From Paraburkholderia hospita (GTDB taxonomy: Bacteria > Pseudomonadota > Gammaproteobacteria > Burkholderiales > Burkholderiaceae), in the NCBI RefSeq assembly GCF_002902965.1, contig NZ_CP026106.1, forward strand, positions 1,302,001-1,366,000: a stretch of DNA of 64,000 nt. The letters run 5' to 3'. Both the position numbers and the translations under genes were made by a program. Position 1 is the stretch's first letter; the number at the start of each line of letters is the position of its first letter. Below the pieces are notes generated by a model. That model had not been told where the DNA came from. It made no database searches and saw only the letters and a program-made list of their open reading frames with translations. Shown here one piece after another: positions 36,627 through 44,859 of the stretch.

Positions 36627-37385
36627 ATGAATATCCATTCATCCACGATTGAAGCAGCGTTCAGTTTTATTTCGGTGAAGAATCCATTCGATGGTGTCGA
36701 AGTGAGCACCGTCGTGAATATCCCACCGGAAGGCGTGCAGATGTTGATTGACAGCGCGAAAGAGGGTGCACGCGCGTGCCGCAGCCTTTCGCGTCATGAG
36801 CGTGCTCGTGTGCTCGAAGCCTGCGCATCGATGGTGGAGCGCGATAAGGACACGTTTGCCGATCTCATTGTCGCGGAAGCCGGTAAGACGATCAGGCAGG
36901 CAAAAAGAGAAGTGCTGCGCTGCGTGAACACGCTCAAGCTGTCCGCCGACGAAGCGCGCCGAAACGGAGGTGAGGTCGTACCGTTCGACGCATATGCCGG
37001 ATCGGAAAACCGGCAGGGATGGTTCACCCGGGAACCGCTCGGCATCATCGTCGCCATCACGCCGTACAACGATCCACTCAACCTGGTTGCACACAAGCTT
37101 GGACCAGCGATCGCCGGGGGCAATGCCGTGGTGCTCAAGCCGTCCGAACTCGCGCCACTTTCGGCTATCAAGCTGGTCAACTATCTTCGCCTCATCACCT
37201 CGGCGGTGTCGCTTGGCCATGACGAGACACTGATCGTGCACGTCGGAAAGGATGGGCGAGGGGGATCCGAGTGCTATCCGGACGTGTTCCGGGAATATGG
37301 TCACCTGCGCCTGTCGATCGGTCTGGAAGATCCGGGCGATTTGATAGCGGATATCAGGGCGGCCCTTGAGGAGACCTTCGACTGA
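36627..37385 (+). pseudogene. Chimeric remnant: aldehyde dehydrogenase N-terminus joined to Cys/Met PLP-enzyme C-terminus
   Basis: The frame is open for 252 aa but joins two families. Residues 1-184 follow the aldehyde dehydrogenase coenzyme domain ([39 protein letters not shown]). The sequence then switches to the C-terminal tail of a cystathionine-synthase/O-acetylhomoserine-type PLP enzyme ([21 protein letters not shown]...[24 protein letters not shown]). The catalytic Cys/Glu half of the dehydrogenase and the PLP lysine domain of the other enzyme are missing. An internal deletion with its junction near 37176 explains this. It should have no activity of either kind. Confidence 0.75.
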
Positions 37386-37833: not shown

Positions 37834-39201
37834 GTGGAAGAACTCGACGAATTCTTCTGGAGTGACCTTCTCGACTACATCGATGAAGGGCGGGTCATTG
37901 CGGTGGTCGATGACGGGCTGCTGCCCGTCAGTCAGGACGGTCAATCCATGGGGTTCGATGCGCTTGTCGCCACCCGGCTGGCAGAAAAGCTCCGCATCGG
38001 CCTGACCGAGTTCGACAACCCTCCGCGGCTGGATGACGTCGTCAGCCGTTATCTGCTACTGCCGCGCGCGCGCAAGGAAGACCTGTACGTTCGCACCTCT
38101 CAGGTCGTGAGAGACCTGGCGATCGAGCCTCCTCAAGCGTTGCTGGACCTCGCCGCCGTGTCCCCGTTCGATCTGTTCGTGACGCTTTCGTTCGACGGCT
38201 TGCTGACTCGCGCCATCGACCTTGTCCGTCACGGCGGGGAAACGCGCACTTCCGTTGTGAGCTTCTCCCCAAATCGGCCTGCCGATCTACCGCTCCCTCG
38301 CGGGCGCCTGACCACGCCAACCGTGTTCCATCTGCTCGGGCGCCAATCGTCAGCGCCCGATTGGGTGATCTGCGACGAGGATCGCCTGGAGTTCCTTCAC
38401 GCGTTGCAGGACGACGCGCGTCGTCCGAAGCTGCTGTTCGATGCGTTGCGCGACGACCATCTGCTGCTGCTCGGTTGCCGGCTGCCGGACTGGCTCGCGC
38501 GCTTTTTCCTGCGCGCAGCCAAGAACGAGCGGCTCTCGTCACCTCGCCAGACGGTGGAGTACCTGATCGATCCAATGGCGGCGCGCGACCCCGCGTTGAA
38601 AGCTTTCCTCGCCGACTTCAGCCCGGCGACCCGCGTCGTGTCGCTGGAGCCGACCGTCTTCTGCGCCGAGCTGCGCTCCCGCTGGAGCCAGCGTCATCCC
38701 ACGGGCGTTGCGCAGGCACCGTCGGCACCCGTCGTGCCGCGCGCCATCGAGGGGGCGGTGTTCATCAGCTATTCGAGTCAGGATACAGACGCCGTGCAAG
38801 GTCTCGCTCGCGAACTCGATGCTGCAGGCATCGACGTATGGTTCGACCGGAGTGAGCTGCGGGGCGGCGATGATTGGGAGCGCAGTATCCGGCGCGGCGT
38901 GGACACCAGCAGCCTGTTCATGCCCGTGATTTCGCGCGCCACGCAAGACCCGGACCGGCGGCGGGACTACTTCTGGCGCGAGTGGATGGCCGCCGACGAG
39001 CGCGCTCGCGGCATGGCGCCCGACGAACCCTTCCTCGTCCCGGTGGTGATCGACGACACGCCCAAGTACGGCGACTGGCTTCCCGACCGCTTTCGCTCCG
39101 CCCAATGGATGACGCTGCCGGGCGCACGCACTGACGAGACGTTCGTCGCGCACGTGCGCGATCTATACCGGCAAATCTCCAGCCGCTGCCGGCGGAGCTG
39201 A
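37834..39201 (+). CDS. SIR2-like/TIR two-domain protein (candidate NAD-cleaving effector)
   Basis: The product is 455 aa. Residues about 10-280 resemble the SIR2_2 fold (EGRVIAVVDDGLLPV, FDLFVTLSFDGLL, VFHLLGR, LLLGCRLPDWLARFFLR). The canonical GAG and Asn-containing catalytic motifs are altered. Residues 309-450 are a TIR domain: VFISYSSQDTDAVQGLARELDAAGIDVWFDRSEL..GDDW, with a putative catalytic Glu383 in YFWREW. TIR and SIR2 domains in defence systems deplete NAD. GTG 37834 follows AGGAGCG by 8 bases. The STAND gene starts one base after the stop, implying one complex or pathway. Confidence 0.8.
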   Translation: MEELDEFFWSDLLDYIDEGRVIAVVDDGLLPVSQDGQSMGFDALVATRLAEKLRIGLTEFDNPPRLDDVVSRYLLLPRARKEDLYVRTSQVVRDLAIEPPQALLDLAAVSPFDLFVTLSFDGLLTRAIDLVRHGGETRTSVVSFSPNRPADLPLPRGRLTTPTVFHLLGRQSSAPDWVICDEDRLEFLHALQDDARRPKLLFDALRDDHLLLLGCRLPDWLARFFLRAAKNERLSSPRQTVEYLIDPMAARDPALKAFLADFSPATRVVSLEPTVFCAELRSRWSQRHPTGVAQAPSAPVVPRAIEGAVFISYSSQDTDAVQGLARELDAAGIDVWFDRSELRGGDDWERSIRRGVDTSSLFMPVISRATQDPDRRRDYFWREWMAADERARGMAPDEPFLVPVVIDDTPKYGDWLPDRFRSAQWMTLPGARTDETFVAHVRDLYRQISSRCRRS

Positions 39202-39202
39202 T

Positions 39203-42200
39203 ATGGCTGATGAAGCGGTTGAATCTGGGCACGAAGGACTGTCGGCAGAGGCGCTGACGCCGACGCGCCCCTGGCCAGGCCTCGCGTCTTTCACTGAGGC
39301 GGACCAGTACTTTTTCCGCGGCCGGGAGAACGAGGCGGAAGAACTCGCGCGGCTGGTGCGCCGTGAAGTACTGACCGTCCTGTTCGGCCGCTCGGGGTTA
39401 GGAAAGACCTCGTTGCTCAATGCGGGACTTTTTCCGCGTTTGCGCGAGAATCTGCACGTGCCCGTGATGATACGTCTCGCGCACGGCGCCGCTTTGCCGC
39501 TGCGCGACCAGGTCTGGCAGGCGCTCGCCGCCGCTTGCAGCGCCGCTGGTGTCGACGCAACCGCGCCGCTGCCGGAGGCGTCATTGTGGGAACACTTTCA
39601 TCGCGCCGGCGCCGGGTTCTGGAACACGCGCAACCGGGCTGTGATACCTGTGCTGGTTTTCGACCAGTTCGAAGAGTTGTTCACGCTCGGCCAGGTCGAC
39701 GAGGAGACGCGCCGTCGCGCTGCCAGCTTCGTCAACGAGCTTTCAGACCTGATTGAAAACCGGCCGCCGGAAGCGTTGCGTCAAGCGCTCGATTCCGGCG
39801 CGGTACCCGCGCAGAGCATCGATTTCAGCCGTCGGGACTGCAAGGTCGTCCTGAGCTTTCGCGAAGACTTCCTGGCGGACGTGGAAGGCTTGCGCGTGAA
39901 CATCCCGTCGCTAATGCGCAACCGATACCGCCTGTTGCCGATGGACGGCTACCAGGCCCGAGCGGTGATCGACAGCGGCGGCGCGCTCGTGGCGCCGATG
40001 GTGGCCGAACGCATCATCGGTCTCGCGTGGCGCAATCGCGCCGAAGCGCCTTCGGCAGACGACTACAGCCGGATGGAGGTCGATCCCGCGCTCCTGAGCG
40101 TGATCTGCAGCGAACTCAATTTGCGTCGTATCGCACAGGGTAGCGATCACATCGGTGCCGAGCTGGTGGCGAGCGCCGAGCGCGAGATACTGGTCGATTT
40201 CTATGAGCGCTCACTGCGAGACGTCGACCCGCGTGTGCGCGTGTTTATCGAGGATGAGCTGATCACGGACGCTGGCCATCGGGACAGCTATGCGCTCGAT
40301 GATGCGCTCGTGCTGCCCGGTATCTCACGCACCGATATCGAGCGGCTCGTGGCTGGCCGGCTGCTGCGCGTCGATGAACGCTTCGGCGTGCGCAGGCTCG
40401 AACTTACCCATGATGTGCTGACGCGCGTTGTCAAGGACAGTCGCGATGCGCGGCAGGCCCGTGACGCGGCGGCCGCGGCGGCCGCGCGCGTGCGTGAGGC
40501 GTTGGAGATACAGCGGCGTAACCGTCGCAACGCGATGTGGGTTGGCGCCGCCTTCGTGTTTGCAATGGCTTTGCTGCTCGGTGCGGGATACGCCGCATAC
40601 GAAGCGACGGTGCAACGACACCGTGCGAGTATCGCGCAGAATGACGCCGTAGCCGCGAAGCAGCAGTTGGTCAAGGAGACCGAGAAATCGATCCAGGCGA
40701 AGCTCGCAATCGAGGAAGCCCAGCAACAGATGCAGCGGGCGGCAGTGGAGTTGCAAAAGATGGGCGACTCCGCAGCCGAGGCAGATCGTCGTGCGAAAGA
40801 GGCGCAGGCGGTCGCAGTGAAGGACGCCGAGTTGGCAGCGATTCAGCAGAAGCGGGCAGACGAAGCCACCGCGCATGCCGGGCAACTGACTCGCGATGCG
40901 ATTATCTCCGGCGTGATTGCCAACGCCAGCGCCGAGGACGCGGAGCATCCCGATCGCGCGCTGCTGCTGGGCGCCGAAGCCAGCCACGCCGCCCCAGTGC
41001 GACTGGATGCGCAGCTTGCGCAACTAGCGCGGCTGATTGCTGACGAAGGCGTGCACAAGATGATGCGGATCGGCGATAAGGTGACCGCGTCAGCAACCAG
41101 CCCTGACGGCAAACGGATGGCCATGGGCACCAACGGTGGCGACGTCATCGATCTGGACCTGACGACCTGGACCGTGCTGCGGCGCTGGAGAGGCCACGAA
41201 GCGGCCGTGCTGGCGTTGGCGTACGACCAGGACGCGTCACGTCTCATATCCGCCGATGCAAAGAGTACCGTCATCGCCTGGCAAGCGCGCGATGCGAAGG
41301 AAATCGGGCGTGTCTCTGTCGGCGATGCCCCCGACATCAAAAAGATTGTCGTCAGTCACCACGGCCAGTTCGTCGCGGTTGCAGGCCATTCAGTTCACGT
41401 GTTGACGATGCCCGGCCAACCGGGTGTCCCAGTGCTGAAGCGCCTTGGCACTGGCGACGGTCAATGCCTTGGATTCGACCGCGACGACGCCACGCTGCTC
41501 TATGGTTCCGGGGATAGCATTGTCGTCGCACCGCTCCCCGGCACCGGCACTGGCACCGAGGCCGGCACCGGGACCGCACCGTCGCCCAGGGCCACACGCC
41601 CCTTGCTCGCGCGCACACCCGACTGCCGGTTCGATGCGTTGCTCCACGCCAACCCCGACGGCAAGCGCGTCGTCGAGCTTCGCGACGAATCAACGGACTC
41701 GGTCATCGGAACGTTGGACGCAGGCGAAGGCGAAGGCGAACTACAGGCGGTCTTCGAGTCCGGAGGCGGCTTTTTTGCGCTTCGAAATGGCCGAACGACC
41801 AGCGTGTGGAAGATACAACCTCTGCAAAAGATCGGCACGGTTGCGGATGAAAGCGGCAAGGCCGTTCGCATGTCATTGAGCCCGGACGGCCGCTGGCTGG
41901 CCACAGCCCTGGCCAACGGCCAGGAGATCGTTCAGCCGACCAGCGGCGGCCGGGCCCGAGTCAAGACCAGGCAAGGACAGCGCGTTGCCGCCTTCCAGTT
42001 TTCGCCGAATGGGGACACCGTCGCGTACCAGATCGATCAACAGGAGACGCTGTACACCATATGGTCGCTCGCGCCAGGGTCGGTGTTGCGGTCCGGCAAA
42101 TCCCTGTACCACGCCGAGGAGGTGGAATTCAACCGCAACGGCAAGGTTCTGGCGACCGTTCCCGCAGGCACGGATATCGCCGACTTCTGGAATCCTGATG

Positions 42201-43081
42201 ATGCTGCGCAATTGCGCAGCGAACGGGGCATGCGCCGCGCCGAATTTAGTCCTGATGGTTCGCTCCTCGCTATTCAGCGCGCCAACGGCACTGTCGATGT
42301 ACTGGAGATGACGGGCCATGCCCGTCTGCAGCTTCAGAAGCCGGTGGATGCCGAAGTAGAGCGCTTTGCTATAAGTTGGGACAATCGACGCCTTGCGATC
42401 ACGCTGTCCGATGGTTCGATTCATGTGTACGAGATCACCCGGGCCGGACACGAAACCGTGCTGTCGGGGAAGCGCGAGTCCGAAGTCGTCGCGTTTAGCC
42501 CCGACGGCCGGGTGCTCGCGGTGGCGGGCGGCGATGGCGTCGTGCGCCTGTTCCGCTTCGGGTCGCAAAAGGCCATGACAGAATTGCCTGATCCGCATAA
42601 GGATCGCGTGCGTCAGCTGGCATTCAGTCCTGACGGCAAGCGGCTCGTATCGGGGGGCGACGATGAGATGGCGATCCTGCACGACGTCGAAAGCGGACAA
42701 ACCGTGGCCAAATTCGGCCCTCATGACGGCCCGGTTGACCGGCTGGTGTTCATTGGCAACGGCGAGGCGCTCGTCAGCGGTGACGCGAAGGGGGAACGCC
42801 AGGTGTGGGACCTCCGCAAGGGGAGCCAACTGGCCCGGCTGCGTGCCGCGGGCGGCATTGTATCAAGCGTGGACATCAGTCCAGGCGGACGTCGCGTGGC
42901 CGTGCTGCATGAGGATCAGACCGTGTCGCTGCGTAACTGGGACAGCGAGTCGATGCTGGCAGATGCTTGCGCGATTGCGAATCGGAATCTTGACTGTGCG
43001 GAGTGGCGGCAGTTTATGTCGGGGGTGCCTTATCGGAAGACGTGTGCGGCGTTGCCTGCGCCGAAGCCGGTTTGTCAGTGA
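39203..43081 (+). CDS. STAND (nSTAND1-like) NTPase with membrane segment, coiled coil and WD40 propeller
   Basis: The product is 1292 aa. The N-terminal entry motif (PWPGLASFTEADQYFFRGRENE) precedes Walker A GRSGLGKT (62-69) and Walker B VLVFDQFEEL (150-159), with arginine-rich sensor and winged-helix-like regions to about 420. A single membrane segment lies at about 445-468, then an Ala/Gln/Glu-rich coiled coil (475-575). At least eleven WD40-like blades follow (627-1245; recurrent SPDGKRLVSGG-type turns). A Gly/Thr/Ala linker at about 780 splits them, and a conserved Cys-rich tail ends the protein. STAND proteins oligomerise on ligand sensing. Its partner is the adjacent TIR protein. Confidence 0.85.
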   Translation: MADEAVESGHEGLSAEALTPTRPWPGLASFTEADQYFFRGRENEAEELARLVRREVLTVLFGRSGLGKTSLLNAGLFPRLRENLHVPVMIRLAHGAALPLRDQVWQALAAACSAAGVDATAPLPEASLWEHFHRAGAGFWNTRNRAVIPVLVFDQFEELFTLGQVDEETRRRAASFVNELSDLIENRPPEALRQALDSGAVPAQSIDFSRRDCKVVLSFREDFLADVEGLRVNIPSLMRNRYRLLPMDGYQARAVIDSGGALVAPMVAERIIGLAWRNRAEAPSADDYSRMEVDPALLSVICSELNLRRIAQGSDHIGAELVASAEREILVDFYERSLRDVDPRVRVFIEDELITDAGHRDSYALDDALVLPGISRTDIERLVAGRLLRVDERFGVRRLELTHDVLTRVVKDSRDARQARDAAAAAAARVREALEIQRRNRRNAMWVGAAFVFAMALLLGAGYAAYEATVQRHRASIAQNDAVAAKQQLVKETEKSIQAKLAIEEAQQQMQRAAVELQKMGDSAAEADRRAKEAQAVAVKDAELAAIQQKRADEATAHAGQLTRDAIISGVIANASAEDAEHPDRALLLGAEASHAAPVRLDAQLAQLARLIADEGVHKMMRIGDKVTASATSPDGKRMAMGTNGGDVIDLDLTTWTVLRRWRGHEAAVLALAYDQDASRLISADAKSTVIAWQARDAKEIGRVSVGDAPDIKKIVVSHHGQFVAVAGHSVHVLTMPGQPGVPVLKRLGTGDGQCLGFDRDDATLLYGSGDSIVVAPLPGTGTGTEAGTGTAPSPRATRPLLARTPDCRFDALLHANPDGKRVVELRDESTDSVIGTLDAGEGEGELQAVFESGGGFFALRNGRTTSVWKIQPLQKIGTVADESGKAVRMSLSPDGRWLATALANGQEIVQPTSGGRARVKTRQGQRVAAFQFSPNGDTVAYQIDQQETLYTIWSLAPGSVLRSGKSLYHAEEVEFNRNGKVLATVPAGTDIADFWNPDDAAQLRSERGMRRAEFSPDGSLLAIQRANGTVDVLEMTGHARLQLQKPVDAEVERFAISWDNRRLAITLSDGSIHVYEITRAGHETVLSGKRESEVVAFSPDGRVLAVAGGDGVVRLFRFGSQKAMTELPDPHKDRVRQLAFSPDGKRLVSGGDDEMAILHDVESGQTVAKFGPHDGPVDRLVFIGNGEALVSGDAKGERQVWDLRKGSQLARLRAAGGIVSSVDISPGGRRVAVLHEDQTVSLRNWDSESMLADACAIANRNLDCAEWRQFMSGVPYRKTCAALPAPKPVCQ

Positions 43082-43214
43082 GAGGGGTGTTGGTGGGTGA
43101 TGTGGGTGAGCTTGGTCGATGTGGGTTATGACTATGATGAAGTTGACGCCATCTCCATTTTCGCGTTGGGATATTGTCTTCGATAACTAATCTCTGATAT
43201 TGAGGAATTTGACG

Positions 43215-43994
43215 ATGAAGCTGATATATACGCCGTTCCCTGCGACAAAGGCAGGTAATTTAGCATCAGTGCTCGCTAAAAGACCCGATGCTGCCAAAGG
43301 CTTTGAGAACAATCAGCGGATTTACGCCCCCAAAAGGAACGATGACAACTACATCAAGAGCGAAGCGCAGCCCCTTGATCTTTCCGACGGGGATGAACTG
43401 CTAATCAACGCGCATTGCAACGCAGGGTTGGACTATCTTTCGACAAACGTCAAATGTGAAACGGACAAAGATGTCGAAAAAAAAGTTACCGCTTCGCAAT
43501 TAGTTCTCCAGTTGGCCGCGCACGGCCTCAAAAAGGAGCGTAACGTAAAGATCAAGTTATGGGTATGCAAGGGAGGGCAGGATGGTGCGTTCGACAAAGA
43601 GTCGTTCGCCAAAAGGTTCTCCAAGGCGATGTTCGAAGCGGGTTATCAGAGTTGCCGTATTTTTGCTTATACAGAATCTCTAATGCAGCAATACGGATCA
43701 ATAGATACGGAAGATCCCCACGAAAAAGGTGTTCACAGACGCAGCAATAACGAAAAAAAACAATTTGACGATTACATTGAAAAATTAAAGACGAACCCTG
43801 AAACGCCTCAGAATAGAACGTTGAAGAGGCTGCTTGCTATTTCTAAATCCGAAGAAGACGCGAAAAGTAAGCTACGACCACTTTGGGAGTCGACCCGCGA
43901 TCACGCCGTCGTGACACCAGGCCTGCGAGCCAGCAATTTCCGTAAGGAATTTCGTGACGGCAAAATCGTCGATCATGTTTCAACTACTGACTGA
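43215..43994 (+). CDS. Hypothetical protein, possible caspase-like (clan CD) Cys peptidase
   Basis: The product is 259 aa, visibly AT-richer than its neighbours and rich in Lys. A strand ending in His67-Cys68 (ELLINAHCNAG) is followed 50 residues later by a strand ending in Cys118-Lys-Gly-Gly (VKIKLWVCKGG). A helix (FAKRFSKAMFEAGY) and another strand (CRIFAYTESL) come next. This His-then-Cys order at strand ends is that of caspase/C80-type peptidases. The assignment is structural guesswork. AGGA precedes ATG 43215. It lies 133 bases after the STAND gene on the same strand and could be a third module component or separate cargo. Confidence 0.6.
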   Translation: MKLIYTPFPATKAGNLASVLAKRPDAAKGFENNQRIYAPKRNDDNYIKSEAQPLDLSDGDELLINAHCNAGLDYLSTNVKCETDKDVEKKVTASQLVLQLAAHGLKKERNVKIKLWVCKGGQDGAFDKESFAKRFSKAMFEAGYQSCRIFAYTESLMQQYGSIDTEDPHEKGVHRRSNNEKKQFDDYIEKLKTNPETPQNRTLKRLLAISKSEEDAKSKLRPLWESTRDHAVVTPGLRASNFRKEFRDGKIVDHVSTTD

Positions 43995-44424
43995 AGAATT
44001 TTTACGCCCGGCTGTTCCATCGGGTGTCCGGCAGGTTTCGAAGTGAACCGGCCGTTGGAATGGCGACTTTTTGTGTTTCGTGAACGACAATTACTGGCAG
44101 AAAGCACCAATTCGAGAACGCTCTGCGGAGCGGTCGTTGAGATTCTCAGTGACTGCTCACTGGCATCAGATGTGAACGAGAACTACCGGCCAACTCCTGC
44201 CACTCGCCGGTGCGCGCCCGCAGACGCTCAAACGGCCGATCCTCAGGAGGCAGCGGACCTCCACTTGCCATCCATCTCGTTGGGCCATCGGCCACTTTTG
44301 CTTGTCTTCGTCACCTCCCTGGCTAGAGTGAAAAGTACCGTAGGTACCTGCTTGAGGGCAGTCGGCCGTCGCGAATCGCGCGGACGGCAGACGGGCGCGC
44401 GAGTTGCGCCGACTGGGAGGTAAC
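43995..44424. other. Intergenic region
   Basis: Between the AT-rich gene and the repeat protein I find no recognised gene. A 126-codon open frame (44043-44423) starts with GTG but has no domain, no ribosome site and poor coding character. I treat it as noncoding. Confidence 0.35.
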
Positions 44425-44859
44425 ATGAAACGCTTCATTGCGAGGCTCGGAATGAGCATGACCCCGAAGCTGACGTGGGGCACCGCGGCAGGCGTGGTTC
44501 TGCTGGCGTGCTCCGTCTTTTTCCCGTCAGCGTATGCTCAGCCCGTTACCACAGGCCCACTCAGCATCACCGGGTCGGCCGTCGTCCGCGGACCGTTGAC
44601 CGTCGATGGCTCGCTGACAGTGGCCGGTGACATCTACGCCCGCGGGCCGATCACGGCGGCCTGGATTGAACGGATTCCGCCCAACGATCCGGCAGTACGC
44701 AGGCGCGGGGGAGGAAACACGTTCGATGGGCCGCTCACTGTGCACGGTCCGCTGATCGTGCACGGCGATCTGGAAGTGGATGGCCCGATCACCATCGGCG
44801 GCCCCGTCGGTGCTGTCGGGCGCGTGGATGCCGAGGGGCCGATTACCGAGCGCCGTTGA
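44425..44859 (+). CDS. Secreted beta-helix-like repeat protein
   Basis: The product is 144 aa. A signal peptide or N-terminal anchor (hydrophobic 17-33, cleavage near AYAQP) is followed by short repeats of the form G-P-L-x-V-x-G-x-L-x-V-x-G-D. Examples are RGPLTVDGSLTVAGDI and DGPLTVHGPLIVHGDLEVDGPITIGGP. A polar insert (about 85-97) separates two repeat blocks. The pattern resembles bactofilin or polymer-forming beta-helix proteins, but in an exported form. GGGAGG precedes ATG 44425. Function is unknown. Confidence 0.7.
   Translation: MKRFIARLGMSMTPKLTWGTAAGVVLLACSVFFPSAYAQPVTTGPLSITGSAVVRGPLTVDGSLTVAGDIYARGPITAAWIERIPPNDPAVRRRGGGNTFDGPLTVHGPLIVHGDLEVDGPITIGGPVGAVGRVDAEGPITERR

Follow-up and report, generated by a model that had tools for sequence, protein, structure and literature searches.

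A SIR2-TIR protein and its membrane nSTAND1 partner in Paraburkholderia hospita as a candidate two-gene NLR-like conflict system

What do the genes at positions 37,834 to 43,994 of a 64,000-nucleotide stretch of Paraburkholderia hospita DNA (contig NZ_CP026106.1; the whole stretch is called the window below) encode, and which of them belong together? A first-pass annotation of the window had read them as a defence module of three genes, likened to an animal apoptosome set: a SIR2-like/TIR protein, a membrane STAND-WD40 nucleoside triphosphatase (NTPase) and a possible caspase-like peptidase. Our analysis indicates that the first two genes likely form a sparsely distributed two-protein NLR-like conflict system, probably directed against phages or mobile elements, in which a membrane STAND sensor would activate a cytosolic TIR NADase in trans. 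The core of the first-pass annotation is right and stronger than its author knew, and two of its details, the third gene and the activity of the SIR2 part, are wrong or unsupported. The host genome comprises 11.5 Mb in six contigs, and the features of the locus are as follows.

37834..39201, + strand: SIR2-like plus TIR protein, 455 aa, GTG start, AGGAG-type site upstream (by eye)
37834..38703, + strand: SIR2-fold region, residues ~1-290; catalytic Asn and His replaced (S119, L168)
38758..39126, + strand: TIR domain, residues 309-431; catalytic Glu383 conserved
39203..43081, + strand: nSTAND1 - transmembrane - coil-like region - WD40 protein, 1292 aa
39269..40432, + strand: nSTAND1 NTPase and following part, residues 23-410; Walker A GRSGLGKT, DQFEE, RED, ELTHD
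40532..40600, + strand: predicted transmembrane helix, residues 444-466; positive residues on the NTPase side
41033..43078, + strand: WD40 beta-propeller sensor region, residues 611-1292; predicted extracytoplasmic
43215..43994, + strand: third open reading frame (ORF), 259 aa, 133 bases downstream of the nSTAND1 gene

Conservation of the gene pair

The domain content given at first reading was recovered with Pfam. The 455-aa protein matches SIR2_2 (residues 114-250, E=1.3e-8) and TIR_2 (residues 309-431, E=3.7e-20); the 1292-aa protein matches nSTAND1 (PF20703) from residue 23 (E=9e-28, 98.4 bits against a curated cut-off of 27.1), followed by a hydrophobic segment (443-466) and by WD40 repeats. 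Exactly one base separates the TGA of the first gene from the ATG of the second, as had been noted.

Loci were gathered by searching with the SIR2-TIR protein alone and were kept only if both its SIR2 and its TIR parts matched. At all 23 loci obtained in this way (the window pair and 22 others, spanning Pseudomonadota and Verrucomicrobiota), SIR2-TIR is followed directly, on the same strand, by an nSTAND1 relative. The others comprise a paralog in the window's own genome (L019), ten loci in other species (L022-L031) that range from Variovorax, at 69% identity, to Opitutaceae and further Verrucomicrobia, one on a Paraburkholderia caribensis megaplasmid (L062), three (L059-L061) in two more of the genomes sampled across the phylum and seven in as many other genomes of the genus (L114-L118, L129, L130). 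L114-L118 were first detected with DNA spanning both genes and were later found again with SIR2-TIR alone. The nSTAND1 gene extends past the contig end at four loci (L023, L026, L029 and L031), and the SIR2-TIR gene of L030 is interrupted. One search was partly circular, since the five strong loci it recovered were already in its alignment, and we do not treat it as independent support. Isolated genes lacking conserved adjacency had been named in advance as the outcome that would speak against the annotation, and adjacency was found throughout.

The spacing of the two genes is tight. In 21 of the 23 pairs they overlap or can start within 42 nt of each other; a 4-nt overlap is possible in nine, seven show the 1-base spacing of the window (with L114-L118 and L129), and a gap of roughly 150-400 nt is present in L023 and L024. 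The pair is thus probably translated together. The distance matrices of the two proteins correlate strongly (r=0.984 across 20 loci; r=0.956 across 16 after removal of four near relatives) and neither value was matched in any of 5000 permutations. We conclude that SIR2-TIR and nSTAND1 have been inherited as a unit.

Both parts of the query are rarely matched together. Among 249 genomes of the family, 11 matched, and only the window genome over both parts; among 398 genomes of the phylum sample, 59 matched, at least three of them (five loci) over both SIR2 and TIR and the rest over a single domain. Six plasmid records matched, one with both parts covered. In the genus, at least 8 of 141 genomes carry SIR2-TIR with both parts. 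The protein counts for the 398 and 141 genomes are lower bounds, with 4 and 11 candidates scored, as are the DNA counts for the genus, with two candidates scored per genome.

In seven of the 17 loci from the search of other species (L032-L038) the TIR part matched alone, and these were dropped. They are a separate group of TIR proteins in which Pfam recognised C-terminal TPR repeats at six loci and, at L033, no domain besides TIR; their TIR domains share 41-50% identity with the TIR of the window protein. BLAST revealed no nSTAND1 relative beside any of the seven. No clear fusion of TIR with this nSTAND1 clade was found among long TIR ORFs in the nine stretches read.

Effector, switch and predicted membrane sensor

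The window protein combines a TIR fold with the catalytic glutamate expected of a TIR NADase. Glu383, already picked out at first reading, is the E of the motif W-R-E-W, and this residue is retained in all 20 SIR2-TIR sequences aligned. In the same 20 sequences, five of which come from one close clade (the window, L114 and L116-L118), both the catalytic Asn and the catalytic His of SIR2 are absent. We compared these with other SIR2_2 hits, excluding three of 20 (L086, L090 and L091) whose match begins past the Asn motif; of the 17 usable hits, the Asn is absent in one (L074) and the His in two (L074 and L082). PADLOC recognised the TIR part alone in the pair, and the AlphaFold model of the protein reached a mean pLDDT of 80. 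With its glutamate present throughout, the TIR domain is the credible NADase of the pair. The SIR2-like region is an apparent pseudoenzyme, a SIR2 fold devoid of its catalytic residues, and the NAD-depleting role first assigned to it is not supported.

The partner appears to be an intact STAND switch. Its P-loop, Walker B and winged-helix motifs are those of the nSTAND1 family and are invariant in the 14 sequences aligned (S64, G65, G67, K68, D154-E158, R220-D222 and H403-D404). Together with the adjacency, the matched divergence of the two proteins and the conserved TIR glutamate, this strengthens the NLR-like reading of the pair and the proposal of co-translation. At a threshold of 1.6 for the mean hydrophobicity over 19 residues, 17 of the 18 partners examined (five of the 18 being from the same close clade) carry a hydrophobic segment that adjoins the end of the NTPase part. 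It is the sole such segment in 16 of the 18; L117 has a second, marginal one (1.61) inside the NTPase. Positive charge is biased towards the NTPase side of the helix in 17 of 18. Given this bias, a predicted single crossing and the necessarily cytoplasmic position of domains that use ATP or NAD, the WD40 sensor is predicted to lie outside the cytoplasm, a point that the first-pass annotation had not developed. The number of cysteines after the helix is even in 10 of 12 partners (by eye, the close clade counted once), a post hoc observation that we do not use as proof.

One partner, encoded at L061:6569-12205 (- strand), is 1879 aa long and carries WD40 and Sel1 repeats; eight cysteines fall within the ~60 residues of its C-terminal tail. 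As such tails are more usual outside the cytoplasm, this suggests a folded extracytoplasmic end.

The C-terminal half is the variable part of the system. WD40-type matches were found in 11 of the 13 partners scanned with Pfam, joined in L061 by the Sel1 repeats and in L024 by a sub-threshold TPR match. Between the window proteins and those of Variovorax, identity is 75% in the NTPase, 72% in the SIR2-like region and 65% in the TIR domain, against 41% in the WD40 region and 43% in the coil-like stretch. The ratio of nonsynonymous to synonymous substitution rates (dN/dS) is 0.16-0.37 for WD40. This pattern, in which switch and effector stay constant and the C-terminal half changes fast and can be exchanged, is compatible with an arms race.

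Neighbourhood and alternative readings

We scanned the neighbours of 10 of the 22 other pair loci with Pfam, and conflict-type genes were found at four. TPR-S and SLATT lie beside L019; CHAT and TPR-S, partly broken, beside L130; and calcineurin with a sub-threshold TIR match ~8 kb away at L129. At the fourth, in Paraburkholderia caribensis MBA4 (L062:920-12359), genes for calcineurin, a CHAT peptidase, a sub-threshold GDSL-like protein and TPR-S precede SIR2-TIR and an nSTAND1 gene with no recognised repeats. Kaur et al. (PMC7159879) count TIR, calcineurin and SLATT among the components of conflict systems. Taken together, catalytic conservation, the fast-evolving C-terminal half and the CHAT, TPR-S and SLATT genes at some sister loci suggest a defence role.

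Several observations weigh against this interpretation. The STAND gene of L115, a copy from the genus, is broken; the helix of L025 is borderline (1.49) and L030 has the opposite charge bias around its helix. Among the 13 partners scanned, L059 and L062 have no WD40 match and L019 only weak ones. Fast divergence is not specific to the sensor, since the coil-like region (dN/dS 0.14-0.48) evolves at least as fast as WD40 in most comparisons, and positive selection on the sensor was not seen, dN/dS being below 1 in every part compared. Six of the ten scanned loci showed no conflict-type genes. Within ~15 kb of the window pair, the neighbours look catabolic, transport-related or regulatory (by eye), with no visible defence island, and no relative was found in the viral contigs searched. 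TIR domains, moreover, can serve as pure scaffolds.

Alternatively, the pair might be an envelope-stress or developmental signalling device with no role against invaders, its TIR domain acting as an adaptor or as the maker of a regulatory NAD-derived messenger. The predicted outward-facing membrane sensor, the surroundings of the window locus and the purifying selection seen among copies from the genus, which are 72-95% identical in DNA, all agree with this. However, the sparse distribution, the faster divergence of the C-terminal half and the TPR-S, SLATT and CHAT neighbours better suit conflict systems, and we consider such a device unlikely.

Considerably less probable is a double NADase, in which the SIR2-like region would have kept its activity in spite of the altered motif. 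Structure comparison with VIA-align shows that its fold matches active SIR2 NADases, and it is under strong purifying selection (dN/dS 0.07-0.16). Against this stands the loss of both catalytic positions in every sequence of the pair; in PMC10973363, the N133A/H171A double mutant of DSR2 is the inactive control, these positions being equated with ours by motif rather than by alignment.

The remaining alternative includes the third ORF. As first described, this ORF is on the same strand, has a low GC content (0.47 vs 0.64-0.66) and contains a His/Cys pair. In a low-confidence AlphaFold model (mean pLDDT 44, pTM 0.34, from a two-row alignment), each of two successive predicted strands leads to one residue of the pair, the His coming first. 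This order resembles that of clan CD peptidases, and the His/Cys pattern recurs in the paralog L020 (by eye), so that the third ORF may encode a peptidase. Searches of Pfam, NCBIfam, PADLOC, the PDB, and plasmid, phage and viral-contig sequences gave no match at the limits used; two PHROG hits (E 0.067 and 0.3) were disregarded. Its membership of the system was not borne out. No third ORF was found beside any of the 22 other pairs, of which 17 are informative, with more than 3 kb of downstream DNA visible; at L023, L026, L028, L029 and L031 this DNA is missing or shorter than 330 bases. In a DNA search of 144 genomes of the genus, the matches to the closest relatives (G999, 95%; G973, 94%; G912 and G932, 90%) end at window positions 43077-43088, and that to G904 (72-80% DNA identity) ends at 43063, the STAND stop being at 43081. 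No relative of the third ORF lies in the stretch retrieved after the pair in any of these five genomes.

Protein searches recovered third-ORF relatives in 1 of 249 genomes of the family, 1 of 274 of the class and 2 of 141 of the genus. These relatives are the paralog L020 in the same genome (8599-9261, on C3 and not beside a pair) and a copy in G999 on a contig other than that of its pair. The ORF at 43215-43994 and L020:8599-9261 thus form an orphan family with a possible His/Cys dyad; this genome holds both of these divergent copies, G999 has a single counterpart, and the searches made found no others. Searches for repeats around the third ORF and scans for promoters and terminators gave nothing above chance. 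We rejected the ORF as a system member on its absence at the other pairs (17 with downstream DNA visible) and on the genus alignments that stop at the end of STAND; it looks like a separate low-GC arrival. That all three genes form one apoptosome-like module, in which STAND-WD40 switches on a caspase-like peptidase as well as the TIR protein, is the least probable reading of all, because its supports (the same-strand position 133 bases downstream, the clan CD-like order, and CHAT genes upstream of the pair at L062 and L130, which are different genes from the third ORF) are set against an ORF that is rare, of deviating GC and missing even beside the four pairs at 90-95% DNA identity.

Two further features flank the locus. 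Immediately upstream of the pair, a short ORF (36627-37385) starts as an aldehyde dehydrogenase fragment and ends with a match to the terminus of a Cys/Met pyridoxal phosphate (PLP) enzyme, below the family cut-off. L115 carries a 479-aa ORF in its place, so this is probably a deletion scar. Downstream, a small protein (44404-44859) has weak bactofilin-like and repeat matches (E 0.04-0.13, below cut-off), and its DNA is kept in many genomes of the genus.

Known systems and proposed mechanism

PMC8195603 and PMC10907252 describe nSTAND1 systems with TIR effectors in general: an nSTAND1 NTPase is the central switch, TIR or peptidase effectors are encoded with it and the sensor is C-terminal. The present pair shares this plan and differs in that its effector is a separate SIR2-like plus TIR protein encoded immediately upstream, that its sensor is mostly WD40 and lies behind a transmembrane helix, and that Pfam recognises no effector-associated adaptor domain. 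We found no description of a SIR2-TIR and nSTAND1 pair in the open-access literature searched, subscription literature being mostly outside this scope.

Other systems resemble the pair in part. Thoeris (ThsA, SIR2-SLOG; ThsB, TIR) also joins a SIR2 fold to a Rossmann-like C-terminal domain, and ThsA chains align with ours over 370-380 residues at a root-mean-square deviation of about 15, with domains placed differently. In contrast to ThsA, whose competent SIR2 has Asn and His, none of the 20 pair sequences keeps either residue; the C-terminal domain is a TIR with a catalytic Glu, and the neighbour is nSTAND1 rather than a ThsB-type TIR gene. Among the Avs and bNACHT proteins, Avs5 (SIR2-STAND) has its effector fused to STAND, whereas here it is a separate ORF, encoded in trans, and the nSTAND1 domain, beginning at residue 23 of its own protein, leaves no N-terminal fusion of the Avs/AVAST type. 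The pair also differs from Avs5 in its SIR2, which lacks catalytic residues, and in the transmembrane helix of its STAND protein. Pfam recognised neither APAZ nor Argonaute in the pair, unlike the short Argonaute systems SPARSA and SPARTA. TIR plus caspase-like immunity is named type IV Thoeris; no conserved caspase-like partner was found here, the third ORF adjoining 1 of 23 pairs, of which 18 could be viewed beyond the nSTAND1 gene. The STAND-WD40 proteins of the APAF-1/TEP1 type likewise place WD40 propellers after a STAND NTPase, and a death or TIR-like effector precedes it (PMC13174449); the pair is bacterial and membrane anchored, with a separate effector, and the likeness is one of plan only.

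We propose that the nSTAND1 protein would span the membrane once, so that the NTPase faces the cytoplasm and the C-terminal repeat sensor lies across the membrane from it. Binding of a trigger to the sensor would lead to NTP-dependent oligomerisation of the STAND part, and the cluster would recruit the cytosolic SIR2-TIR partner, whose SIR2-fold region may be a non-catalytic scaffold for oligomerisation or docking. Clustered TIR domains would then turn active and hydrolyse or convert NAD+, so that the cell is stopped or a signal is made; TPR-S, SLATT or CHAT proteins at some sister loci may answer a TIR-derived signal. We infer direct binding, membrane topology, NADase activity, trigger and defence role alike.

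More tentatively, the pair could be a bacterial transmembrane NLR, running from an outside beta-propeller through one helix to a cytosolic STAND and a TIR NADase with a SIR2 scaffold. It is possible, in that case, that it is a two-protein counterpart, in plan, of a Toll-like receptor and that the invader is sensed at the envelope, before or during DNA entry. Sensors of the Avs type recognise phage proteins in the cytosol.

For annotation, these results tell a robust two-gene system apart from a misleading third neighbour. In the pair, nature also offers a conserved example of how a SIR2 NADase fold has become an apparent pseudoenzyme beside an apparently live TIR, which bears on the repeated association of SIR2 with TIR domains in immunity and the reasons for it. 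The pair resembles animal and plant immune receptors and, if the predicted topology is true, it would make testable whether bacterial immunity of the NLR type senses attack from outside the cytoplasm.
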